Assembly: GCA_013298545.1 (NCBI GenBank)
Contig: JAAFIA010000052.1
Span: 1-34,526, forward strand
Length of the DNA: 34,526 bases
Direction of reading: 5' to 3'
Source: Bacteroidota bacterium
Lineage (GTDB): Bacteria > Bacteroidota > Bacteroidia > Palsa-965
Position 1 is the first letter of the stretch; each line of letters begins with the position of its first letter. Position numbers and translations under genes: made by a program. The notes beneath the pieces were generated by a model. That model made no database searches. It was not told where the DNA came from and saw only the letters and a list, made by a program, of their open reading frames with translations. Below, one piece after another: positions 1 to 30,922 of the stretch.

Positions 1-292
1 CAACAAAACCCATCTGTCGATCAACACTAGAGCGAGCAAAAAAAAGTAAATAGAAGACGCTTTATTGAGATAACGTCTGGTGTGAGGGAGCATTGTACTA
101 AAATGTGGGTTTTTCAACGAAAAAAATCTGGACTGGGCTATCAGAATCCTGTGTATGGACAATAGATGCATTGCAAAACTAAATAGAAAATAGCGATTCA
201 AAAAAGGAGAGACATTATACTTGTGTAGATCAAAATCATTGTCTAGATTTAGCTTATCAAAATAAAAAAGTAAACAGCAAACAAACCGACAC

Positions 293-2677
293 ATGAAAAC
301 ACAACTACTTACATCACTAAAACTGCTAGCACTATGTGTCTTTGCGTTTTCGCAAAGTCATTCGCAAACAGTTACGTTTAACTACACAGGAGGGATGCAG
401 ACCTATACTGTACCAGTTGGTGTTACACTCCTTACGATTGATGCTTATGGCGCGCAGGGTGGCTTTGGCTACAATGTGCCAAACGTAACGCCAGGTCTTG
501 GAGGACGTGTACAGGCATCACTTGCCGTAACACCGGGCGAGGTACTGAATATTTATGTTGGTGGTCAGGGAGGTCCTGGCGGAACAACAGTTGGTGGTAC
601 TGCTGGTTACAATGGTGGTGGCACAGGTGGCGGCTGGTCAGGTGGACGCAGCGGTGGTGGCGGTGGCGGTGCGTCTGATATACGTCAGGGCGGCAATGCG
701 TTGGCCAATCGTGTGATTGTGGCTGCGGGTGGCGGTGGTACAGGTGTGAATCACTCTTCTGGCGATGCGGGTGGTAATGGTGGCGGCCTTACTGGCTCCA
801 ATGGTCTTACCGGAACCTATCTTGGCGCTGGTGCAACGCAAGTTGCAGGTGGTGCTCCTAACGGTGTTTTAGGTGGCGGTGGAAATGCACCAGCAGGACA
901 AACTGGCGGCGGCGGCGGCGGCGGATATTATGGTGGTGGCTCTTCCGCTTGGGAAGGCGGCGGTGGCGGCAGTAGTTATACTGCTCCGACAATTGTTACT
1001 GCGATTACACATACCGCTGGTAACCGCACCGGAAACGGACAAATCACCATTACGCCCATCATCATATTTAGTGCAACAGTTGCTCAATCGGCAACGATTC
1101 AATGTAATGGACAATCAACAGCCGCATTGACAACAACACTGAATGGTGGTACGGCACCTTTTACCTATTCATGGGCTCCATCGGGTGGTAATGCTGCAAC
1201 AGCAACTGGTCTTGCCGCAGGAACATATACAGTAACGATTACAGACGCAAATTCATTAGTTACTACCCAAACATTTACGGTTACACAACCACCAGCATTT
1301 GTTTCAACACCAGTTTCGCAAACGAATATTGCATGCAATGGCAATAGTACGGGTTCAGCTTCAGTAATTGCATCCGGCGGTACAGGTGGATATACCTATA
1401 CTTGGACACCATCAGGCGGAAATGCGGCTACAGCGACTGGTCTTGCAGCAGGTGTTTATACCGTAACCGTAACAGATGCAAACGCTTGTTTAACATCACA
1501 GACGTTTAACATCACACAACCTACGGCACTTGTAGCAAGCGCATCTTCGCAAACCGATATTTTATGTAATGGTGGTAACAATGGTTCTGCAACGGTAAGT
1601 GCGTCAGGTGGAACAGGTGGATATACTTATGCATGGCTGCCTTCCGGTGGAACTTCAGCAACCGCATCCAATCTTGTAGCCGCGACTTATACCGTTACGG
1701 TAACTGATGCGAATAGTTGTTCAACTACACAAACATTCAATATTACACAATTAGCACCCGTAGTTGCTACAGCTACTTCAACGGCTATTCTTTGCAACGG
1801 AGATAGTGCCACAATAAATGTTGTTGGCTCAGGCGGAACAGGCGGCCCTTATCCGGGCGCAGGTGTGTTTGTCGTAGCAGCAGGAGTATATACCTACACC
1901 ATTAACGATGCAAATGGTTGCACAGCAACAACAAGTATTACAGTAACCGAACCACCTTCACTTAATACAACAAGTTCATTCATCAATCCCAGCACTTGCA
2001 ATGGAATAAATGGATCTATTAATCTTTCTGTTTCGGGTGGAACTCCGGGCTACACTTATCTCTGGAGTAATTCAAACACAACGCAAGATCTTTCTTCCAT
2101 CTCGGCTGGAACATACGCTTGTTTCATCACCGATGCAAATGGATGTACGGCATCTCTCAGTGTAACACTTGTTGATCCAACTCCACCAACGGTATCGTTG
2201 GCCATTACTACTGATACAGTTTGTAGTAGCGATGGGTTATTTGGTTTAACAGGCGGAGTGCCCATGGGTGGTTCATTCTCAGGCCCAGGCGTAAGTGCAG
2301 GATCGTTTAATCCGAGTGCGGCAAACATTGGCTTAAACACAATCACCTACACCTACACCGATTTGCAAACCGGATGTTCAGGAACCAATACCGATATTAT
2401 TTTTGTCGATCCATGCGCGGGTGTTGCGGAAACTGTTTTGGCAAATACATTCAATGTATATCCAAATCCAAGCAACGGAACATTTACACTGCAATTGAAT
2501 ACGAATCAACAAGCGGATGTATTGATTTATGATGCAGTTGGTAAACTTGTTTTAGCAACGAAAGTTCAGCCAAACATGCAACAGCAAATTTCAATCGAAT
2601 CGGCTGGAGTTTATTTGATCACAGTAGTAACTACTGATGGAAATCGCAGCAGCCAGCGTATGGTTGTGAATCAATAA
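293..2677 (+). CDS. Secreted glycine-rich / SprB-repeat T9SS adhesin-like protein
   Basis: 794 aa. Residues 1-25 form a Sec signal peptide ending near SHSQ. Residues about 27-255 are a glycine-rich domain of the ALK/LTK-type seen in many Bacteroidota exoproteins: an MQTYTVPVG start, an AYGAQGG motif and long Gly runs encoded by GGC/GGT repeats. Residues about 262-630 hold five SprB-like repeats, each with a CNG motif, a GGT-x-x-YTY-W core and a G-x-YTVTVTDAN ending. A cysteine-bearing linker follows, then a T9SS type A sorting domain (about 720-794, starting NVYPNPSNGTF). Family knowledge: SprB repeats occur in gliding adhesins and other cell-surface proteins exported by T9SS. The adhesin role is inferred. 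It is a clear paralogue of the 895-aa protein at 4360-7047. A strong hairpin terminator follows the stop codon. No good promoter is visible; TATACTTG at 216-223 is the nearest -7-like box. Confidence 0.9.
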   Translation: MKTQLLTSLKLLALCVFAFSQSHSQTVTFNYTGGMQTYTVPVGVTLLTIDAYGAQGGFGYNVPNVTPGLGGRVQASLAVTPGEVLNIYVGGQGGPGGTTVGGTAGYNGGGTGGGWSGGRSGGGGGGASDIRQGGNALANRVIVAAGGGGTGVNHSSGDAGGNGGGLTGSNGLTGTYLGAGATQVAGGAPNGVLGGGGNAPAGQTGGGGGGGYYGGGSSAWEGGGGGSSYTAPTIVTAITHTAGNRTGNGQITITPIIIFSATVAQSATIQCNGQSTAALTTTLNGGTAPFTYSWAPSGGNAATATGLAAGTYTVTITDANSLVTTQTFTVTQPPAFVSTPVSQTNIACNGNSTGSASVIASGGTGGYTYTWTPSGGNAATATGLAAGVYTVTVTDANACLTSQTFNITQPTALVASASSQTDILCNGGNNGSATVSASGGTGGYTYAWLPSGGTSATASNLVAATYTVTVTDANSCSTTQTFNITQLAPVVATATSTAILCNGDSATINVVGSGGTGGPYPGAGVFVVAAGVYTYTINDANGCTATTSITVTEPPSLNTTSSFINPSTCNGINGSINLSVSGGTPGYTYLWSNSNTTQDLSSISAGTYACFITDANGCTASLSVTLVDPTPPTVSLAITTDTVCSSDGLFGLTGGVPMGGSFSGPGVSAGSFNPSAANIGLNTITYTYTDLQTGCSGTNTDIIFVDPCAGVAETVLANTFNVYPNPSNGTFTLQLNTNQQADVLIYDAVGKLVLATKVQPNMQQQISIESAGVYLITVVTTDGNRSSQRMVVNQ

Positions 2678-2698
2678 ATGCAAATGCCCATGAAAACA

Positions 2699-2736
2699 AA
2701 ATCGGCTGCTTCGCAAGAGGCAGCCGATTTGTTTTT
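2699..2736. terminator. Bidirectional Rho-independent terminator between convergent genes
   Basis: An 11-bp perfect stem (AAATCGGCTGC at 2699-2709 with its complement at 2720-2730) has a 10-nt loop and is followed by GTTTTT. On the minus strand it is followed by TTTTGTTTT, so it can serve both the adhesin gene to its left and the cyclophilin gene to its right. Confidence 0.85.
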
Positions 2737-2791
2737 ATAACAATCATAGCATGTTGTTTTGCTTTGATTGACGAATAAAAGAATCATGTTT

Positions 2792-3916
2792 TTACTCCAC
2801 CACCAATTTCCCCCGCTGCACAACCCGCCCATCTTCAACAACCCGACAAAAATAAACGCCTTTTGCTTGCGCACTTAAATCAAGCGCGTAGCTTGTGGCG
2901 TTGGGTTTTGTAACAAGCACAGAGCGTCCGGTTACATCAAAAATTTCAATGGTGCTTTCGCTTGGCAAATCAGAAAACGTAAACAGACCCTTGCTGGGAT
3001 TGGGTGCTACATGAATTGGATCGAATGGTGTATAATCTTCAATACCAACACCCGAAACAGAAAAATTCCAAGTGGTCGAAAATCCACTGGTGTCGCCACC
3101 GTTGTTACTTTTTACGCGCCAGTAATACGTGTTGCCCGATGTGAGTCCGGTTACGGTATATTGATTGGTGCCAACATCAACCGAACGGTACGTTGTTGCA
3201 AACGTAGAATCGGTAGAAACATCGACATGATAAATGATGCCATCGCTTTGCGCATCCCATTTTAAAACACGTGCCAGCGAAGAGGCATACGAATAATTTA
3301 AGGGTTGATTCAATACAGGAACGGTTGCAAGGGTATCGTTTGAACCAACAAGGGTAATAAACATTTCAATTTTCAACAACGGATTATCATTCACATCGCG
3401 CGGTTCATTCACAATCGTATCAACGATATTCATGCCTGAAACAACACGGCCATAAATACTGTATTGCCCGTTGAGCCAAGAAGCAGGCGCAACACAAATA
3501 AAGAATTGTGAGTTTGCACTATTTGTATCAATATCACGCGCTGCTGAAAGAATGCCGCGTAGATGCCGCGCTGCTGTAAACTCGGCATTCACCGTTGGTT
3601 GATTCGGATCGCCATAACCCCAAGTTGAAATGGGGCCGCTGCGCGAATTGGGATCGCCACCCTGAATCATAAATCCAGGAATGACGCGATGAAAAGCAGT
3701 ACTGTCGTAAAATTGCGTACTCACCAAACTATCAAAATTAGCTACGTGCAAAGGAGCAATAGCTGGAAAAAGCTCTACGGTTATTGTTCCCAAATAATTT
3801 CCGTTTCGTTTGGTCAGAATATCGTAAACAGGTTTGCCAGAAAATGTTCGCGTTTGTGCGAAAGCTGAAAAACAGACAAATACGGCAACCAGAAAGAGTA
3901 GAACATGTTTTTTCAT
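2792..3916 (-). CDS. Secreted cyclophilin-type peptidyl-prolyl isomerase with FN3-like and T9SS domains
   Basis: 374 aa. A Sec signal peptide (1-20, ending AFAQ) precedes a cyclophilin domain at about 28-190. The core motif FHRVIPGFMIQGGD at 75-88 is intact, with Arg77 matching the catalytic Arg of the family. So are the SQFFI and WLNGQYSIYGRV segments that line the proline pocket. Residues about 205-290 look like a fibronectin type III module, with a WDAQSDG core and a TYYWRVKS strand. Residues about 300-374 are a T9SS sorting domain ending GKLVVE. The enzyme would isomerise prolyl bonds outside the cell or at the cell surface. A TATATTTG box at 3921-3928 matches the -7 consensus, but it lies only 5 bp from the ATG and has no -33 partner, so I do not call it a promoter. 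Confidence 0.9.
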   Translation of the reverse strand: MKKHVLLFLVAVFVCFSAFAQTRTFSGKPVYDILTKRNGNYLGTITVELFPAIAPLHVANFDSLVSTQFYDSTAFHRVIPGFMIQGGDPNSRSGPISTWGYGDPNQPTVNAEFTAARHLRGILSAARDIDTNSANSQFFICVAPASWLNGQYSIYGRVVSGMNIVDTIVNEPRDVNDNPLLKIEMFITLVGSNDTLATVPVLNQPLNYSYASSLARVLKWDAQSDGIIYHVDVSTDSTFATTYRSVDVGTNQYTVTGLTSGNTYYWRVKSNNGGDTSGFSTTWNFSVSGVGIEDYTPFDPIHVAPNPSKGLFTFSDLPSESTIEIFDVTGRSVLVTKPNATSYALDLSAQAKGVYFCRVVEDGRVVQRGKLVVE

Positions 3917-3992
3917 GTATCAAATATAACAAAGCATTGTTCGATCGCCATCTTTTCTAGGCCAATTTTCTTTCTCTCGATGGGTTTATTAA

Positions 3993-4181
3993 GAGCCTGT
4001 TTAAATTTTATCCTTCGTTCCGAAGCCTCGGAATTGTTATGTGTCTTTTTGCACCATACTTCGTTGCGTTTCTTGACCGTAGTCGCATAGCTATGGCCTG
4101 CAAAACGCGCCTCGTCTGGCACAAAAATCCATCATAACAATTCTCAATCCCGATGCTTCGGAACAAATTTTAAACAGGCGC
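3993..4181. mobile_element. MITE-like 189-bp palindromic element with TAA target duplication
   Basis: The ends are inverted repeats, GAGCCTGTTTAAA at the left and TTTAAACAGGCGC at the right. Inner segments also match in inverted orientation (GTTCCGAAGC, GAATTGTTATG, TTTTTG-CACCA), so the whole element folds into one imperfect hairpin. The trinucleotide TAA flanks it directly at 3990-3992 and 4182-4184. It has no transposase. A 3-bp TNA duplication and GAGCCTG-like ends recall the IS1031 group of the IS5 family; that assignment is from memory. Two reading frames cross it, but they are by-products of the palindrome. Confidence 0.7.
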
Positions 4182-4221
4182 TAAAGGAGTTTTATGCTTG
4201 TTTTTAGACAGAAAAAGGGTA

Positions 4222-4251
4222 TTGTGTAGTAATGCTTAAAAACTACCTTTG
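4222..4251 (+). promoter_or_regulatory. Bacteroidota-type promoter for the 895-aa adhesin gene
   Basis: TTG at 4222-4224, a 19-bp spacer and TACCTTTG at 4244-4251 fit the Bacteroidota sigma-A pattern (-33 TTG, -7 TAnnTTTG). It lies about 108 bp upstream of the start codon at 4360, just beyond the MITE-like element. Confidence 0.5.
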
Positions 4252-4359
4252 AAAGAAGAATTGAGAAGCATCAACATGTATTTGGCGAACATGCACCAAT
4301 TCGCATTGTTTGTCGTACTGTGGATAGATGCACAAAAGTAAACCCATGAAACATCACCC

Positions 4360-7047
4360 ATGAAAACAAACATTACGCAAAAAACAACACGCCTAATTAG
4401 GCGAACAAAAACGCTTGCCGTTTTTACATTAAGTATTCTCGGGCTACAAGCCTTTGCGCAAACTACATTTAACTATACCGGATCAATGCAAACCTATACC
4501 GTTCCAGTAGGTACAACATTGATTCGTATTGATGCGCAAGGTGCTCAAGGTGGCTCAATCACAATTGCTTGTGCGGCCACTGGCGGATTAGGTGCACGTA
4601 TGGTGGGCGATGTTGCCGTAACACCCGGCGAAGTTCTTTCTGTCTTAGTTGGTGGACAAGGACTGACCCAAGGCGAAGATGGCGGCGGTGGCGGCGGATC
4701 ATTTGTGGTGCGCACCGGAAACGTTCCGCTCGTTATTGCTGGCGGCGGCGGCGGTGCAACAAATAATATTCAAATCTGCACAGGCCTTCGCAATGGGGTG
4801 AATGCTTCTATCACCACATCAGGAACAGCAAGTGCCAATGGACTTATTGCAGGTGGTATCAATGGCAATGGTGGTGGCGCAAACATTGGTTCTGGTTGCG
4901 GCGGTGGCGGTTTTCTTACCGATGGTGGATACTCCGCTAATATGAATGGACGCGGACGTGCGTATGTGAATGGCGGTGCTGGTGGAACAGGTCAAAACAA
5001 TAACCACGGTGGTTATGGCGGTGGCGGTTGCGGCTGGTTCAATGGCGGCAATGGCGGCGGCGGCGGCGGATATTCTGGCGGTGGTACTGACGGAAATTAT
5101 CCATCTACTTATTTCGGCGGCGGCGGCGGCGGTGGTTCTTACAACATCGGAACAAATCAAAACAATGTGGCTGGTTTCAAAACTGGAAACGGACTTGTTG
5201 TCATTACTCCGCTTGTCATATCACCTTCTGCAACAATTGCGCAGTCATCCGTTATTCAATGTTTCGGACAATCAACAGCATCATTAACAGCAACGGTAAC
5301 AGGCGGAACAAGTCCATATACTTATGCTTGGGCACCAACAGGTGGCAATGCTGCAACAGCAACAGGTCTTGCCGCAGGAACCTATACTGTAACGGTTACA
5401 GATGCTAACTCTGCCACAACAACACAAACATTCACGATTACACAACCAACCGCAATTGTTGCTTCTGCTAGTTCAACCAATGTATTGTGCAATGGTGGAA
5501 ATACAGGATCTGCAACTGCAACCGTAACTGGTGGAACACCTGGTTATTCCTACGTTTGGTCAACTGGCGGAACAACCGCTACGATTACTGGTCTTGCAGC
5601 AGGTTTATATACCTATACCGTTACCGATACGCAAGGCTGTACTAGTACACAATCAACAACCGTAACGCAACCAACAGCACTAGCTGCTTCGACGATGCAA
5701 ACCAACGTGTTGTGTAATGGTGCTAGCACAGGCAATGCCATGGTGATGGTAAGTGGCGGAACGCCAAACTATCAATACAGTTGGGCACCATCAGGCGGCA
5801 ATGCTGCAACAGCGAGCGGACTCACTGCGGGAACTTATACTTGCACGATTACAGATGGTAACAATTGTACGATGACACAAACGGTTTCAATCATCGAACC
5901 ATCGCCTTTAGTTGCTAGTTCTGTATCTACTGCAATTCTCTGTAGCGGTGATTCGTCAACCATTACCGTTTCTGCTTCAGGTGGTGTTGGTCCTTATGCT
6001 GGTACTGGTACATTTACAGTTGCAGCAGGAATACATATCTACAACATCTCTGATGCCAATGGTTGTAACACCACATTATTTGACACCATCACCAGTCCAG
6101 ATCCAATTACGGTGAGTGCGGTTGTTACCAATGTATCATGCAATGGTGGTGCAAATGGTGCAATCGATCTGACCGTTGGCGGTGGAACTCCAGGATATAC
6201 ATTCTTGTGGTCGAACAATGCTACCACAGAAGATTTAACAGGTCTTTCTGCTGGTTCGTACAGCGGTGTTTTAACTGATGCGAATGGTTGTATCTACAGT
6301 GGAACCGTTGTCATTACGGAGCCGCTTGCCTTATTTACAAATTCATTGATTACAAATCCGACTACCTGTGGTGGAACGAATGGATCAATCAATGTGGTTA
6401 CTTCTGGTGGTACGCCAGCATATACTTACGCTTGGTCAAACAGCGCAACTACCGAAGACTTATCTGGCATAGGTGCGGGCATTTATTCATGTACAACTAC
6501 CGATTCTTTAGGCTGCACAACTACTTTTTCTGTAACCTTGACAGATCCAAACCCACCTGCTGTAACATTCAACTTCCAACAAGCAACAATTTGTGAAAGC
6601 GACGCATCACTTACCCTGTCTGGATCACCTGCTGGCGGAACATTCAGCGGCCCAGGCGTAACGGGCAATTCATTCGATCCGTCAACACTCAATGGTGTGC
6701 AACAGATTGTGTATTCTTACACCGATCCAAATACACTTTGTTCGGCTTCGTCAACTGCTTCAATTATGGTTAATGCTTGCGTTGGTATTAACGATCCTGC
6801 ATCTGCTGACCTGTTTGTAAACGTCTATCCAAATCCAAATGCGGGTGTGTTTACAATCGAAGCACGTAGCAATAGCGGCAATACGATTCAACTTGAATTG
6901 TTGAATGAACTTGGACAAACAGTTCAGACATTGACCATGAACGCTTCAACGAAATCAATGGACATCAGCACACTCGATGCCGGAATGTACTTTATTCGTG
7001 TGAGCGATGGAACTTCCATCTCCATGCAGCGTATGATCAAACAGTAA
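4360..7047 (+). CDS. Secreted glycine-rich / SprB-repeat T9SS adhesin-like protein (paralogue)
   Basis: 895 aa. The N-terminus has a long basic stretch and then a hydrophobic segment ending LQAFAQ (about residues 15-34), which I read as a signal peptide. The glycine-rich domain follows at about 36-285, with the same MQTYTVPVG start and GAQGG motif as the first gene and several runs of in-frame GGC codons. Six SprB-like repeats at about 290-730 carry the CNGG / GGTPGYTY-W / TDANGC pattern. A T9SS sorting domain forms the last 75 residues (VYPNPNAGVF to the C-terminus). It is the paralogue of the protein at 293-2677, with one more repeat. An upstream ATG at 4346 is out of frame, so 4360 is the start. 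A strong terminator follows. The surface-adhesin role is inferred from domain content. Confidence 0.9.
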   Translation: MKTNITQKTTRLIRRTKTLAVFTLSILGLQAFAQTTFNYTGSMQTYTVPVGTTLIRIDAQGAQGGSITIACAATGGLGARMVGDVAVTPGEVLSVLVGGQGLTQGEDGGGGGGSFVVRTGNVPLVIAGGGGGATNNIQICTGLRNGVNASITTSGTASANGLIAGGINGNGGGANIGSGCGGGGFLTDGGYSANMNGRGRAYVNGGAGGTGQNNNHGGYGGGGCGWFNGGNGGGGGGYSGGGTDGNYPSTYFGGGGGGGSYNIGTNQNNVAGFKTGNGLVVITPLVISPSATIAQSSVIQCFGQSTASLTATVTGGTSPYTYAWAPTGGNAATATGLAAGTYTVTVTDANSATTTQTFTITQPTAIVASASSTNVLCNGGNTGSATATVTGGTPGYSYVWSTGGTTATITGLAAGLYTYTVTDTQGCTSTQSTTVTQPTALAASTMQTNVLCNGASTGNAMVMVSGGTPNYQYSWAPSGGNAATASGLTAGTYTCTITDGNNCTMTQTVSIIEPSPLVASSVSTAILCSGDSSTITVSASGGVGPYAGTGTFTVAAGIHIYNISDANGCNTTLFDTITSPDPITVSAVVTNVSCNGGANGAIDLTVGGGTPGYTFLWSNNATTEDLTGLSAGSYSGVLTDANGCIYSGTVVITEPLALFTNSLITNPTTCGGTNGSINVVTSGGTPAYTYAWSNSATTEDLSGIGAGIYSCTTTDSLGCTTTFSVTLTDPNPPAVTFNFQQATICESDASLTLSGSPAGGTFSGPGVTGNSFDPSTLNGVQQIVYSYTDPNTLCSASSTASIMVNACVGINDPASADLFVNVYPNPNAGVFTIEARSNSGNTIQLELLNELGQTVQTLTMNASTKSMDISTLDAGMYFIRVSDGTSISMQRMIKQ

Positions 7048-22039: not shown

Positions 22040-23359
22040 TTACTCCACCACCAATTTCCCACTAATCCGAATACGATCCGATTCCAATACCGTGTAAAAA
22101 TAAAGCCCTGCTGCAAATTCAGTTGTTTCTACTTCGAGTGTAGTGGTATTGTTTTTCCGGCGGTAAATTTCGCGACCCAATGGATCGAAAATAACAAGTT
22201 CATACGGTTCTATATTTCCTGTTACCTGAAATGTGGTTGAAGTTGTGGCCGGATTGGGAAATACATGGACAGAAAATAAATTTTCTGTTTCAGAAATTCC
22301 GGTATTTAAATGGCCGCATTGGTTGGTGTTGTTTCCGCCAATCCATTTTAAGACTTTAGAAACACTATCGCCATCAACAGTCCAGAATCCACCACCAATA
22401 TATAATTCACCATTAAAAACTTCAATAGCTGTTATCGAATTATCAAAGTTTCCAACATTACACCAATCCATTCCATCGTATTTAGCCAAGTATGGGGTTG
22501 ATATTCCACCTGCGGTAGAAATTTGACCACCGACCCAAAGTTCGTTGTTGTACACTTTCATGGATAGAACTTGTCCACCAGTAATTCCACCACCAACTTG
22601 TGTCCAAGTTGATCCATCCCAACGGGCAATCATGTTTCCCGGACTGCCTGATGCCGTTGTAAAATAACCACCAACATACAAGTAACCATTATACTCCGCA
22701 AAACAATTTACACCATCTAAAAAACCCGTAAAAGCAGCACCAAAATTTTGCCATTGTATTCCGTCCCATTTCGCTAAACAATTATATGAATTAGGACTAT
22801 GAAAACCACCACCTACATATAAATCTCCTTGATACTTTGTTGCACAATATGCGCCAGACCCTGTTGACCAATTTGCATTTCCGATAGCATTCCAATTCGT
22901 TCCATCATAACGTGCTACACCATGTGCCGCAATGCCAGCAATACTATCAAAACGACCTAAAACGTAGAGATTGGTGTCTATGACTGTTATGCCAATACAT
23001 GAGGTTGTTGTTTCTGCAAATGGCTGCCAAGTACCATTAACAAGTTTACAAACGCCTCTATAAAAACCTGATAAATTATGAAAGTCTATTGCATAATACT
23101 CATTCCTGTATTTTACAGTCTGAATTGTTGGGCCTTTATTCCCAAGTGTATCCCAAAGTGTATCAGAATTGTAAACTAAAAATCTTGGATACGTCAAAAC
23201 TTGACTTGCAGCAATCAAATTATTGGAATCGACTGAGAAACCAATAATCCACATTGTCGAATCCATATATCCCCCACCAATCGACTGCCAGTTTTGCGCT
23301 TTCGCGCAAAACTGGCTAATCAATAGAAGAAAAACGAAGGCCGTTTTTTTGATACTCAT
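22040..23359 (-). CDS. T9SS-exported beta-propeller protein, copy A
   Basis: 439 aa. The signal peptide (1-21, ending FCAKAQ) is encoded across a perfect DNA hairpin (23288-23315). The mature part has about six repeats of the form 'G-D/Y-LYVGG-x-F ... A-R/K-W/Y-DG-x-x-W', such as GDLYVGGGFH, GYLYVGGYFT, NELWVGGQIST and GELYIGGGFW. These form a propeller common in Bacteroidota exoproteins. A T9SS sorting domain covers about 365-439 (VFPNPATTST to the C-terminus GKLVVE). The protein is identical to copy B except near the C-terminus (V for I in GKLVVE). Only one base separates it from the stump of the SBBP gene upstream, mirroring the intact SBBP-439 pair. Confidence 0.85.
   Translation of the reverse strand: MSIKKTAFVFLLLISQFCAKAQNWQSIGGGYMDSTMWIIGFSVDSNNLIAASQVLTYPRFLVYNSDTLWDTLGNKGPTIQTVKYRNEYYAIDFHNLSGFYRGVCKLVNGTWQPFAETTTSCIGITVIDTNLYVLGRFDSIAGIAAHGVARYDGTNWNAIGNANWSTGSGAYCATKYQGDLYVGGGFHSPNSYNCLAKWDGIQWQNFGAAFTGFLDGVNCFAEYNGYLYVGGYFTTASGSPGNMIARWDGSTWTQVGGGITGGQVLSMKVYNNELWVGGQISTAGGISTPYLAKYDGMDWCNVGNFDNSITAIEVFNGELYIGGGFWTVDGDSVSKVLKWIGGNNTNQCGHLNTGISETENLFSVHVFPNPATTSTTFQVTGNIEPYELVIFDPLGREIYRRKNNTTTLEVETTEFAAGLYFYTVLESDRIRISGKLVVE
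23288..23315. other. Perfect 12-bp hairpin inside the signal-peptide codons, copy A
   Basis: CCAGTTTTGCGC pairs with GCGCAAAACTGG across a 4-nt loop, located about 45-72 nt inside the 439-aa gene. It encodes the end of the signal peptide. The same hairpin is in copy B. Confidence 0.8.
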
Positions 23360-23360
23360 G

Positions 23361-23758
23361 TTAGTCTTGTTTAATAATTCTATTCGTCATTACTAAACGA
23401 TCACCAACTTGAACGGTTACCATGTAAACACCATTGCTGACGTTTGAAAGATCAAGTTGCTGCTGTAAAGTTCCGAAATTATTGACACAATTCCTATCTG
23501 TAATTATCTGTCCCAAAACATCGTAAACGGTAATACGCACGTCCTCGCCATTCAAACCCGCCATTTGCACCATAAAATTGCCCGATGTAGGATTGGGATA
23601 AATGATAAAGTTTGAATTTGAAACAAACTGCTCATCCGCAAAACCAACCGTAATGGCGGTAATGTCGAACCGCGCCATGTAGGTTTGCGTTGACTTTCAA
23701 GGTATCGGCCATTCGTTGGCTACTTGATTGGGATAAGCCCAAGGATAAGTAGCGGGAA
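23361..23758 (-). pseudogene. 3' stump of the 1283-aa SBBP-repeat gene
   Basis: The last 105 codons (MARFDITAITVGF to RIIKQ) match the C-terminus of the intact protein at 25084-28935, including its T9SS sorting domain. Further upstream (23679-23758) the match continues at DNA level (YPWAYPNQVANEW), but small deletions break the frame and about 12 bp are missing near 23690. There is no signal peptide and no start region, so the product could not be exported. Base differences from the parent are about 3%, including at least four amino-acid changes, as expected for decay without selection. The open 105-codon frame is therefore not a real gene. Confidence 0.88.
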
Positions 23759-23762
23759 CATT

Positions 23763-25082
23763 TTACTCAACGATCAATTTCCCACTAATCCGAATACGAT
23801 CCGATTCCAATACCGTGTAAAAATAAAGCCCTGCTGCAAATTCAGTCGTTTCTACTTCGAGTGTAGTGGTATTGTTTTTCCGGCGGTAAATTTCGCGACC
23901 CAATGGATCGAAAATAACAAGTTCATACGGTTCTATATTTCCTGTTACCTGAAATGTGGTTGAAGTTGTGGCCGGATTGGGAAATACATGGACAGAAAAT
24001 AAATTTTCTGTTTCAGAAATTCCGGTATTTAAATGGCCGCATTGGTTGGTGTTGTTTCCGCCAATCCATTTTAAGACTTTAGAAACACTATCGCCATCAA
24101 CAGTCCAGAATCCACCACCAATATATAATTCACCATTAAAAACTTCAATAGCTGTTATCGAATTATCAAAGTTTCCAACATTACACCAATCCATTCCATC
24201 GTATTTAGCCAAGTATGGGGTTGATATTCCACCTGCGGTAGAAATTTGACCACCGACCCAAAGTTCGTTGTTGTACACTTTCATGGATAGAACTTGTCCA
24301 CCAGTAATTCCACCACCAACTTGTGTCCAAGTTGATCCATCCCAACGGGCAATCATGTTTCCCGGACTGCCTGATGCCGTTGTAAAATAACCACCAACAT
24401 ACAAGTAACCATTATACTCCGCAAAACAATTTACACCATCTAAAAAACCCGTAAAAGCAGCACCAAAATTTTGCCATTGTATTCCGTCCCATTTCGCTAA
24501 ACAATTATATGAATTAGGACTATGAAAACCACCACCTACATATAAATCTCCTTGATACTTTGTTGCACAATATGCGCCAGACCCTGTTGACCAATTTGCA
24601 TTTCCGATAGCATTCCAATTCGTTCCATCATAACGTGCTACACCATGTGCCGCAATGCCAGCAATACTATCAAAACGACCTAAAACGTAGAGATTGGTGT
24701 CTATGACTGTTATGCCAATACATGAGGTTGTTGTTTCTGCAAATGGCTGCCAAGTACCATTAACAAGTTTACAAACGCCTCTATAAAAACCTGATAAATT
24801 ATGAAAGTCTATTGCATAATACTCATTCCTGTATTTTACAGTCTGAATTGTTGGGCCTTTATTCCCAAGTGTATCCCAAAGTGTATCAGAATTGTAAACT
24901 AAAAATCTTGGATACGTCAAAACTTGACTTGCAGCAATCAAATTATTGGAATCGACTGAGAAACCAATAATCCACATTGTCGAATCCATATATCCCCCAC
25001 CAATCGACTGCCAGTTTTGCGCTTTCGCGCAAAACTGGCTAATCAATAGAAGAAAAACGAAGGCCGTTTTTTTGATACTCAT
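23763..25082 (-). CDS. T9SS-exported beta-propeller protein, copy B
   Basis: 439 aa, same architecture as copy A: signal peptide 1-21, propeller repeats with LYVGG motifs, sorting domain at about 365-439 ending GKLIVE. It starts one base after the stop of the 1283-aa SBBP gene, so it is the original downstream partner in a two-gene operon and is probably translated by coupling. The two products may act together on the cell surface, as both are T9SS cargo. The function of the propeller is unknown. A perfect 12-bp hairpin at 25011-25038 lies in the signal-peptide codons. Confidence 0.87.
   Translation of the reverse strand: MSIKKTAFVFLLLISQFCAKAQNWQSIGGGYMDSTMWIIGFSVDSNNLIAASQVLTYPRFLVYNSDTLWDTLGNKGPTIQTVKYRNEYYAIDFHNLSGFYRGVCKLVNGTWQPFAETTTSCIGITVIDTNLYVLGRFDSIAGIAAHGVARYDGTNWNAIGNANWSTGSGAYCATKYQGDLYVGGGFHSPNSYNCLAKWDGIQWQNFGAAFTGFLDGVNCFAEYNGYLYVGGYFTTASGSPGNMIARWDGSTWTQVGGGITGGQVLSMKVYNNELWVGGQISTAGGISTPYLAKYDGMDWCNVGNFDNSITAIEVFNGELYIGGGFWTVDGDSVSKVLKWIGGNNTNQCGHLNTGISETENLFSVHVFPNPATTSTTFQVTGNIEPYELVIFDPLGREIYRRKNNTTTLEVETTEFAAGLYFYTVLESDRIRISGKLIVE
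25011..25038. other. Perfect 12-bp hairpin inside the signal-peptide codons, copy B
   Basis: CCAGTTTTGCGC and GCGCAAAACTGG flank a 4-nt loop. The sequence and position are identical to the hairpin at 23288-23315. Confidence 0.8.
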
Positions 25083-28935: not shown

Positions 28936-29640
28936 TTTTACTTTGTTAGGTGAATTGAAAACAGAAATTTTGTCCGGCGGCGGTGCATTTTGACGCGTTC
29001 CAAGTTTGCGCTTGGGTCAATTTGCATCGCTGTCTTTTTCTTTCGGGAGGACAGCCGCACCAAAACAACCGCCTTGCGGTGTTTTGGTGTTTGGGAGATT
29101 TTTTTCTTTTGGGTTTTTCTCTTACAAAAGAGAAAAACTTTTACTCATTTTATTTTCTTGGTTGTTGACCGCGTTAAACATTTGTCTTCTCGCTCTTGGA
29201 GAAACAAGACATACTATAAAAGTTTGCTTAATTGCCTCGATTAAAAGGCAGCAAGCAGCATTCAAAACACCATGCTGTTTCGGGTCTTGAACAGCATGGT
29301 GTTATTCCAGTTGGTTTTGCAACTGGTCGAAGCAGTTCCATTTTTGGGGATGTTTTCTGCCTCTGGGATGTTGAATATACCTTGTATTGGTCGCTGTTTG
29401 CTTAGTCTTCGGGGATGGAATCGCTGCAAACAGGTATGCAATTTATTTATTTTTTCGCATTCGATGTATTTATTTTTGTTTGGGCTGGTTGAAAGACGTT
29501 GGTTTCTCTATTTGGTTGGTTGGTGTGGTTTGTTTTTGTTTTGGTGAGTTGCTTAGTTGCTTTCCGTAATACAAAATACCGATAGGCCATTCAAGGAGTT
29601 CGTCCAACTGATGAATGGATTTTGTAGTGGTGTTTTTCTT
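28936..29640. other. Non-coding, hairpin-rich region
   Basis: No convincing gene apart from the doubtful small frame at 29470-29652. Hairpins in order: imperfect 28980-29030 (GCGGTGCA/TGCATCGC, TTGAC/GTCAA, CCAAG/CTTGG); 29058-29089 (14 bp with one bulge, CACCAAAAC and ACCGC); 29113-29138 (11 bp, GTTTTTCTCTT, 4-nt loop); 29266-29303 (14 bp perfect); 29307-29326 (7 bp, CCAGTTG). From about 29440 to 29560 the plus strand is T/G-rich without visible structure. Confidence 0.6.
29266..29303 (-). terminator. Strong hairpin, possible minus-strand terminator
   Basis: AACACCATGCTGTT (29266-29279) pairs perfectly with 29290-29303 across 10 nt. On the minus strand the stem ends GGTGTTTTG, a short T run, so it could end transcripts coming from the ncRNA region or from the small frame at 29470-29652. 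On the plus strand no T tract follows. Confidence 0.4.
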
Positions 29641-29652
29641 TCGTTTAGGCAT
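29470..29652 (-). CDS. Possible small hypothetical protein
   Basis: 60 aa, basic and Gln/Lys/Pro-rich at the C-terminus (NSPKQKQTTPTNQ), with a more ordered middle (SIHQLDELLEWPIGILYYG). No family is recognised and there is no ribosome-binding site. Its start codon region (ATGCCTAAA) is complementary to TTTAGGCAT at 29679-29687, in the hairpin just upstream, so initiation could be controlled by RNA folding. It may equally be a chance frame in structured DNA. Confidence 0.25.
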   Translation of the reverse strand: MPKRKKNTTTKSIHQLDELLEWPIGILYYGKQLSNSPKQKQTTPTNQIEKPTSFNQPKQK

Positions 29653-29670: not shown

Positions 29671-29752
29671 AAAACCGGATGCCTAAAGCATAACCCCTAT
29701 AACAGTAGGCAATCCGGTTTTTGACTCCGCTTTGTAACAGTACTTGCGGAGT
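29671..29752. other. Two adjacent stem-loops with a shared loop motif
   Basis: The first stem is AAAACCGGAT (29671-29680) plus GCCTA with TAGGC and ATCCGGTTTT (29706-29721), with one bulged base. The second is ACTCCGC (29724-29730) with GCGGAGT (29746-29752). Both loops contain TAACAGTA (plus strand). The first stem is followed by Ts on the plus strand (TTTTTTG) and by TTTTAAT on the minus strand. They lie directly 3' (minus strand) of the two ncRNA candidates. Confidence 0.55.
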
Positions 29753-29772: not shown

Positions 29773-29803
29773 AAAAAAATCGGCGTGGCATTTTAGCCGC
29801 CGA
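29773..29803 (-). terminator. Terminator of ncRNA copy 1
   Basis: On the minus strand TCGGCG pairs with CGCCGA (plus 29798-29803 and 29780-29785), followed by seven Ts (29773-29779). Confidence 0.65.
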
Positions 29804-29949
29804 GAGTTCAGGAACCGCGAAGCCCCCTACAACCAAGCAAACCAAAAGCCACGCCTTTCGGCGCAGCATTGATTTTCTTTTGGTTGTAATAATTTTCGCG
29901 GTTTTGAACTCCCAAATTAATCAACGCCAATGCGTTAAATTCGATATGT
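29773..29949 (-). ncRNA. Structured ncRNA candidate, copy 1 (~177 nt)
   Basis: Read on the minus strand, it starts with the conserved box ACATATCGAATT and the mini-hairpin AACGC-attg-GCGTT (29923-29949). A long arm follows, with helices (plus coordinates) 29806-29810/29905-29909 (GTTCA), 29815-29821/29895-29901 (CCGCGAA) and 29828-29836/29880-29888 (TACAACCAA), capped by GCGCC-GAAA-GGCGT at about 29852-29863. It ends in a terminator, TCGGCG/CGCCGA followed by seven Ts (29773-29803). The structure and length match the second copy, while helix sequences differ by paired changes. The arm leaves unpaired GGGGGC and TTCC conserved in both copies. No known RNA family is recognised. The function is unknown. 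Confidence 0.6.
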
Positions 29950-29997
29950 GAAAAAAGGTATCTGTTTTTTTCGGATGTCGTTTTTTTAATTTCGGTA

Positions 29998-30005
29998 CTA
30001 ATGTA
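29998..30005 (-). promoter_or_regulatory. Candidate promoter block of ncRNA copy 1
   Basis: The minus-strand TACATTAG lies within a block (AAAACTG-x-x-ATAC-W-TTAG) that is also conserved upstream of copy 2, about 50 bp before the conserved 5' box. It differs from TAnnTTTG by one base. No matching TTG was found at the -33 position. Confidence 0.25.
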
Positions 30006-30057
30006 TCACAGTTTTTGATTCGATTGAAAAGCATAGCTGTTTTTTTAGGTTTAGAAC

Positions 30058-30086
30058 AAAAAAGGGGCGTGAGTGTTAAATGCCCT
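30058..30086 (-). terminator. Terminator of ncRNA copy 2
   Basis: On the minus strand GGGC (plus 30082-30085) pairs with GCCC (about 30065-30068), followed by six Ts (30058-30063). It is a short stem, weaker than that of copy 1. Confidence 0.45.
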
Positions 30087-30235
30087 GTTCTTCAGGAACG
30101 GCGAAGCCCCCAACTACAAGTACATCTAAACCCACGCCTTTCGGCGTGGCGTTTAGTGTTGTCTTGTAGTTTTTCAATTTTTCGCCGTTTTGAAGAACAA
30201 GAAATCACTAACGCCAATGCGTTAATTCGATATGT
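30058..30235 (-). ncRNA. Structured ncRNA candidate, copy 2 (~178 nt)
   Basis: Read on the minus strand, it has the same plan as copy 1: 5' box ACATATCGAATT with mini-hairpin AACGC-attg-GCGTT (30210-30235). Its helices are 30087-30094/30191-30198 (GTTCTTCA), 30099-30105/30181-30187 (CGGCGAA) and 30114-30120/30163-30169 (CTACAAG), with a cap of CCACGCC-GAAA-GGCGTGG (30132-30149, GNRA tetraloop on the minus strand). The terminator GGGC/GCCC plus six Ts is at 30058-30086. Compared with copy 1, the second helix has a G-C to C-G swap and the third helix is wholly different yet still paired. These changes support an RNA, or folded single-strand, function on the minus strand. The two copies start 285 bp apart. 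Confidence 0.6.
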
Positions 30236-30278: not shown

Positions 30279-30286
30279 CTAAAGTA
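30279..30286 (-). promoter_or_regulatory. Candidate promoter block of ncRNA copy 2
   Basis: The minus-strand TACTTTAG lies in the block shared with copy 1 (AAAACTG-x-x-ATAC-W-TTAG). It is about 44 bp upstream of the conserved 5' box. Confidence 0.25.
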
Positions 30287-30494
30287 TTGCAGTTTTCAAT
30301 ACACTCGAAAAAATAAAGCAGTTATTTTCTTTTGTTCTTATGCGGAACAGAATGTATTGGGTACGTTTTCAGAACACTAAAACCATTAAAAAAACTTTTT
30401 GCAGGGTTCTTTTGGATAGAATTTCAATAAACGCATAAAAACAATTTTCTATCCAGATCAGCACCTTATCCATCTCTTATCCGGTTGTTGTCCA

Positions 30495-30801: not shown

Positions 30802-30922
30802 AAATGAAGGCTTTTGAAGGTACTTTGAAGCCTATTTCAAGGTACTTTGAAGTGTATTTGAAGGTACTTTGAAGTGTATTTGAAGGTACTTTGAAGTGTA
30901 TTTGAAGGTACTTTGAAGTGTG
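30802..30922. repeat. Phased 11-bp tandem array, type 2 (TTTGAAG, 22-bp superunit)
   Basis: Eleven units of exactly 11 bp. After a first divergent unit (AAATGAAGGCT), TTTGAAGGTAC alternates with TTTGAAGTGTA, giving a 22-bp repeat. The unit starts are 30813, 30824 and so on to 30912. One unit has TTTCAAG and one TTTGAAGCCTA. The repeats are close to one DNA helical turn, so all copies face nearly the same side of the helix. Confidence 0.9.

Follow-up and report, generated by a model that had tools for sequence, protein, structure and literature searches.

The window, that is, the whole stretch of 34,526 nucleotides analysed here, corresponds to contig C103 in a genome of 4.53 Mb (G000). Its minus strand carries two structured elements in tandem, copy A at approximately 30235-30058 and copy B at approximately 29949-29773, which is where the original prediction had placed them; direct repeats between the two copies are spaced 283-287 bp, in agreement with the 285 bp claimed. 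Both leaders precede a 60-aa ORF. The segments follow one another in the RNA in the order box5 - L - R - S - L' - T - U-run, with L and L' forming helices H1, H2 and H3, and the features are located as follows.

30279..30301, minus strand: putative promoter of copy A, TATTGAAAACTGCAATACTTTAG, an imperfect version of the Bacteroidota -33/-7 type, read from the sequence
30058..30235, minus strand: leader RNA of copy A, 5' box to U-run (match to covariance model R1, described below, at 30083-30235, 169.9 bits, plus segment T and the U-run)
30199..30217, minus strand: box5 of copy A, partner of R in the 5' hairpin
30164..30198, minus strand: 5' strands of H1, H2 and H3 (rod) of copy A
30141..30163, minus strand: segment R of copy A, partner of S (rod tip) or of box5
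30119..30138, minus strand: segment S of copy A, partner of R or T
30086..30118, minus strand: 3' strands of H3, H2 and H1 of copy A
30066..30082, minus strand: segment T of copy A, partner of S
30058..30063, minus strand: U-run of copy A
30058..30140, minus strand: 3' half of copy A, a terminator-like hairpin (-34.8 kcal/mol, z -3.9, folded as 30056-30140)
29998..30020, minus strand: putative promoter of copy B, AATCAAAAACTGTGATACATTAG, degenerate, likewise read from the sequence
29773..29949, minus strand: leader RNA of copy B, 5' box to U-run (R1 match at 29799-29949, 140.7 bits, plus T and the U-run)
29913..29930, minus strand: box5 of copy B
29881..29912, minus strand: 5' strands of H1-H3 of copy B
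29858..29880, minus strand: segment R of copy B
29836..29855, minus strand: segment S of copy B
29802..29835, minus strand: 3' strands of H3-H1 of copy B
29782..29798, minus strand: segment T of copy B
29773..29779, minus strand: U-run of copy B
29470..29652, minus strand: 60-aa ORF (MPKRKKNTTTKSIHQLDELLEWPIG...), start at 29652, downstream of copy B and its probable regulated gene

By eye, the 60-aa ORF resembles the ORF following the copy on contig C154 of the same genome (locus L008, 6559-6930). At both places a second hairpin lies between the leader and the small ORF (window 29673-29719, minus strand; L008 6500-6548, plus strand), with a conserved loop AGGGGTTATGC and a stem that in the window reads AACCGGATTGCCTA...TAGGCATCCGGTT and in L008 is altered yet paired; the small ORF that follows has a QLDxLL...QLSxxP motif in the window and L008 alike. 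Elsewhere in the window, a recent tandem duplication at 22040-25082 has left two ORFs of 439 aa that are almost the same (23359-22040 and 25082-23763); a similar piece of a C-terminal sorting domain precedes each of them. Upstream of copy A, units of 11 bp, TTTGAAGGTAC / TTTGAAGTGTA, are repeated in tandem at 30813-30922, a short array with six registered copies.

Copy A folds at -75.7 kcal/mol (z -8.4) and copy B at -81.0 kcal/mol (z -7.6), and in neither case was this equalled by any of 200 dinucleotide shuffles. The compensatory changes between the copies that had been described for helices 2 and 3 were confirmed, and further changes of this kind occur in the outer helix. Where two copies had been claimed, blastn reveals four leader paralogues in three places of the genome, 76-84% identical; the additional ones, on contigs C154 and C2, are 79-84% identical to copy A. 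Weak blastn matches in this genome fall on C35, C77 and C78; those on C35 and C77 proved to be chance. Comparison of the four copies shows that H1, H2 and H3 are full of compensatory changes, for instance T-A/G-C/C-G at one pair of H1 and a G-C/C-G exchange in H2. The GAAA tetraloop attributed to each element is not a family-wide feature, as copy C2 already possesses GGAA and most relatives deviate.

The four copies were used to build covariance model R1 (153 positions, 46 pairs). A search of six genomes of the same genus gave no match, and one relative was found in another genus of the same family (E 4e-14). Within the class Bacteroidia, R1 matches 59 of 395 genomes, nearly all of the matches being full length, with E values down to 1e-15. 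A refined model, R2, built from 33 of these class-level relatives, matches 63 of 395 genomes sampled at phylum level, some of them in families that lie beyond the class. About one sampled Bacteroidota genome in six is positive, with up to seven leader copies per genome, and copies are also found on two mobilizable plasmids. Cultured carriers include Flavobacterium aciduliphilum DSM 25663 and the host of the Rhizosphaericola mali plasmid. A DNA pattern made of segments S and T alone was scanned over 84,980 species and found 52 places, all 52 titled Bacteroidota, in genera such as Flavobacterium, Chryseobacterium, Chitinophaga, Spirosoma, Saprospira and Ilyomonas. Since all 52 also match R2, an independent check, S and T are part of the same element as the rod.

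These relatives are reached by covariance models only: blastn of copy A against 58 relatives and against phage and plasmid collections found nothing. In viral contigs the exact patterns of the 5' box and T box gave no match, and the S..T pattern gave 20 matches, of which the models support only L175, L189 and L192; another of them, L182, proved when read by eye to be GC-rich sequence without the element. Reverse-strand matches to the covariance models (27-30 bits) were dropped as echoes arising from the near-palindromic rod.

No Rfam 15 family reaches its gathering threshold in the window, and relaxing the search there to E<=10 adds only sub-threshold chance matches. Nor does Rfam match the element itself in 20 relatives, or the canonical copy L141 at E<=5. 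The statement that no named family fits is therefore upheld. Literature searches found no description of the leader family, although it may be listed unnamed in published motif supplements, such as those on the 64 structured leaders reported for Flavobacterium psychrophilum (PMC9723704) or on human-microbiome motifs (PMC8040213). The elements represent an RNA family of about 190 nt, uncatalogued before, which precedes very different Bacteroidota genes.

In 74 aligned members, 92.6% of rod helix cells are paired compared with 60.2% after shuffling, 44 of the 46 rod pairs show two-sided changes, and the covariation score, 0.805, falls to 0.223 in shuffled and to 0.07-0.12 in slid alignments. Against a tree null, in which substitutions were redistributed on a FastTree tree of 103 members (a home-made approximation, distinct from R-scape), 38 column pairs reach E<=0.05; they take in almost the whole of H1, H2 and H3, together with R:S and the mini-hairpin at the 5' end. 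Covariation in each of the three rod helices lies far above this phylogeny-aware null. Selection on the folded form, as originally proposed, is borne out by both covariation and homologues, and of the outcomes that the original prediction had listed as contrary to it, a lack of homologues, a lack of significant covariation and a match in Rfam were tested and none occurred. In H1, H3 and H4, G.U appositions number 163 and A.C only 16, indicating that the coding strand is the folding strand. By comparison, H2 (window 30181-30189 with 30097-30105) displays all four Watson-Crick pairs and almost no G.U (0/427 cells), which suggests an extra constraint on both strands.

The leaders have a characteristic context. 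A same-strand ORF starts at a median of 223 nt (IQR 212-235) from the RNA start in 113 of 122 unique copies, whereas the upstream gene is found in either orientation. In 65 of 103 members the 90 nt upstream contain a TAnnTTTG box, typically 42 nt before the RNA, compared with 4.7% of control stretches, and the RNA is followed by five or more consecutive T in 73 of 103 (controls: 17.9%). An upstream promoter and a same-strand gene at a fixed short distance are what is expected of a 5' leader, and the earlier reading of the element as a regulatory RNA is upheld by these features together with the U-run. The genes downstream encode LamG-like proteins (8), TonB-dependent receptors (8), DNA methylases, response regulators, PLD-like proteins, type I restriction enzymes and secreted proteins; the element is a leader RNA of diverse accessory genes. 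As these share no function, no ligand suggests itself, which counts against the attenuator reading proposed below.

Several loci deserve mention in their own right. In genus g60, eight copies (L093, L094, L096, L109, L113, L114, L117 and L118) are followed directly by genes for TonB-dependent (SusC-like) receptors whose N-termini are related. On L008, an apparent integrated element (175-5738) comprises a tyrosine integrase, a 350-aa protein, a small HTH-type gene and an ATPase (phrog_6891), followed by the leader. L009 and L079 share a homologous gene block beside the leader, without PHROG matches (clusters 11-14), which may be an integrated element not yet described.

A second set of covarying pairings excludes the rod: box5 with R in the 5' half, and S with T in the 3' half, the latter forming a strong hairpin immediately 5' of the U-run. 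The evolution of five segments, box5, R, S, T and U, is coupled. In many relatives segment U is found some 44-53 alignment columns past the RNA, just ahead of the start codon; it is of the type GGGACATT, and its covarying partner is T. Duplex energies of cognate partners exceed those of swapped partners for R:S, box5:R, S:T, T:U and box5:T, and do not for controls. Because T is nearly invariant, column-wise covariation is insufficient for S:T, and helix-block tests against the tree null were used. These gave 0/300 for box5 with R, S with T (score 80.8, null maximum 42.1) and T with U, and 3/300 for box5 with T, compared with 145-246 of 300 for five control segment pairs. An unbiased all-against-all scan of every possible helix, with 35 nt of upstream sequence included, placed H1, H2, H3, R:S, the mini-hairpin, S:T and T:U above the family-wise threshold and one further pair at the borderline; box5:R fell below that threshold.

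Each half also folds in isolation. Mean energies are -15.9 kcal/mol for 5' halves and -33.0 kcal/mol for 3' halves, against -65.2 kcal/mol for the whole RNA, and the mean z of the 3' half is about -5 with mononucleotide shuffles. Against dinucleotide shuffles, z is -3.9 for the 3' half of either window copy, and for the 5' half -3.2 in copy A and -1.1 in copy B; the weak structure of the copy B 5' half on its own counts against a two-state reading. The 3' hairpin escapes the consensus terminator scan because that scan is limited to loops of 3-8 nt. The sequences GGGGGC and TTCC, previously regarded as conserved and unpaired, are indeed internal loops in the rod (family consensus AGGUGC and GUACCU; GGGGGC and GUUCCU in the window), but they can pair with each other in the alternative 3' hairpin, and one position of this pairing swaps jointly from G-C to C-G. 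Likewise, of the proposed terminal stem with its T run, the T run is present, and the stem is segment T, the end of a long hairpin that takes in the whole 3' half. In minimum free energy folds of the growing transcript, box5:R is present in 100 of 103 members at the end of R; once S is complete, R:S is present in 100 of 103 as well, and the rod follows thereafter.

Two mutually exclusive conserved folds, one of which is a hairpin followed by a U-run, are the hallmark of an attenuator. The RNAs are probably on/off switches, and we consider it reasonably likely that the elements are 5' leader RNAs that act in cis as transcription attenuators. In the first state, L:L' (H1-H3) and R:S would combine into one long rod, leaving T free; the rod would be the antiterminator, with RNA polymerase reading through into the gene. 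In the second, each half would pair with itself through box5:R and S:T, and the S:T hairpin before the U-run should terminate transcription, box5:R acting as a putative anti-antiterminator. The rod is approximately 16 kcal/mol more stable than the two separate halves, which tells against this reading. As it is predicted to prevail thermodynamically once L' has been made, some factor would have to lock the 5' hairpin for the off state, candidates being a ligand, a protein, a trans RNA or polymerase speed. What the data establish is the family, its covarying rod and alternative pairings, the enrichment of promoter and U-run and the fixed distance to a gene; we infer the hairpin termination, the identity of the on state, the decision by a factor, the signal and the direction of control. 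Since U lies beyond the U-run, T:U is confined to read-through RNA, where it may tune translation or stability of the mRNA; such a pairing is superfluous for a simple attenuator and to that extent counts against this reading. Alternatively, R and S could swap partners with H1-H3 kept, as a double pseudoknot, which the strict lengths of H1-H3 would fit.

Other functions were weighed against attenuation. It is improbable that the element functions chiefly as an independent small RNA of some 190 nt, ending at the U-run and trans-acting or protein-binding, with the nearby gene a mere neighbor. Such an RNA would account for the promoter and U-run and for the variety of downstream genes among copies of one genome; moreover, copy B follows copy A with no gene between them, which counts against attenuation. 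The tight same-strand gene spacing beside mixed upstream orientations speaks against it, as does the covariation of T:U past the U-run, which requires a read-through RNA. A translational switch, in which T:U or nearby structure at the start codon gates ribosome access and the U-run is an unpaired spacer, seems rather less likely still. The position of U just upstream of the start codon, the T:U covariation and the roughly 30% of copies without a five-T run fit such a switch; the enrichment of U-runs directly after the S:T hairpin, and the stability of the hairpin that precedes them (~33 kcal/mol), do not.

We attach a similarly low probability to the alternative pairings being by-products of the similarity of R to T and of box5 to S, with only the rod of importance, as in a protein-binding leader or ribozyme. 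R does resemble T (CTAAACGCTCACGC, CTAAATGTCCCACGC), and because of this likeness pairing of S with either entails pairing with the other; single column pairs of S:T also stay under the per-pair threshold. Against this, the controls R with T and box5 with S are uncoupled while box5 with R, S with T and T with U are coupled, and the conserved internal-loop bases of the rod pair together in the 3' hairpin. Least likely is a DNA-level element, whether an integron attC-like folded site, a MITE or an IS200/IS605-type end moving between loci: the sporadic distribution with absence from six congeners, the four-segment symmetry, and tyrosine integrase genes within 9 kb of 15/45 loci and a small HTH gene at 11/45 (raw counts, without a control rate) are outweighed by promoter enrichment, U-run, fixed gene spacing, mixed upstream orientation and folding of the coding strand, and the sequence varies almost everywhere while pairing persists, leaving no fixed recombinase core or terminal repeat. 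The recombinase substrate, which the original prediction had offered as its second option, is for these reasons unsupported and was set aside with the MITE and attC readings; as a whole, the interpretation given in the original prediction is partly supported.

With attenuation as the preferred reading, a wider proposal has in our view about an even chance of being correct: that the family is a new class of signal-responsive attenuators spanning the phylum, each RNA a palindrome itself composed of two palindromes, in which the nascent strand picks one rod or two hairpins by toehold-like strand exchange, serving as a common off-switch by which unrelated mobile, surface and defence genes answer one general signal. 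RNA regulation in Bacteroidota is poorly known, and a leader with exceptionally clear covariation in about one-sixth of sampled genomes is nevertheless missing from Rfam 15. Both competing folds are under selection and hence directly open to mutational tests, and the signal would reveal a shared layer of control for accessory genes such as those for TonB-dependent receptors, restriction-modification, response regulators and secreted lectin-like proteins.

Among known systems, integron attC sites have the same long palindromic structure, free sequence and unrelated neighboring genes. The present family differs in that it has no conserved core boxes at both ends, its coding strand folds, a promoter is included and the gene is always downstream; its consensus has no two-ended invariant core, nor was a 5'-side cassette gene in constant orientation found. 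The DUF805 RNA (RF03081, clan CL00115) is likewise a structured RNA, with 68 nt and another structure. One copy (L038:1721-1787, contig C67 of genome G226; 65 bits) lies between a leader and its gene, and this was the sole match of the DUF805 model on the leader family, beside the element and not on it. The put, EAR and JUMPstart leaders of processive antitermination act on distant terminators via modified polymerase. They too are structured leaders before accessory or surface genes, whereas the antiterminator here competes with its own terminator. Terminating riboswitches and T-box leaders show the same mutually exclusive antiterminator and terminator and the same sporadic multi-gene use, but the present family has no known aptamer consensus, Rfam match or common metabolic gene theme. 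A further parallel is with the four-segment trp/his attenuators (in this phylum, Bacteroid-trp RNA, RF01692), which are 5' leaders with the same competition of 1:2, 2:3 and 3:4 and with 3:4 before the U-run. In the leader of about 40 nt no obvious leader peptide with control codons was seen by eye. In contrast to the trp/his type, the present family precedes diverse genes instead of one pathway and has no Rfam match, and the loops of both hairpins are complementary over ~25 bp (H1-H3), so that the antiterminator would become a giant rod. This is a new RNA family of unusual architecture within a known kind, the leader attenuator.
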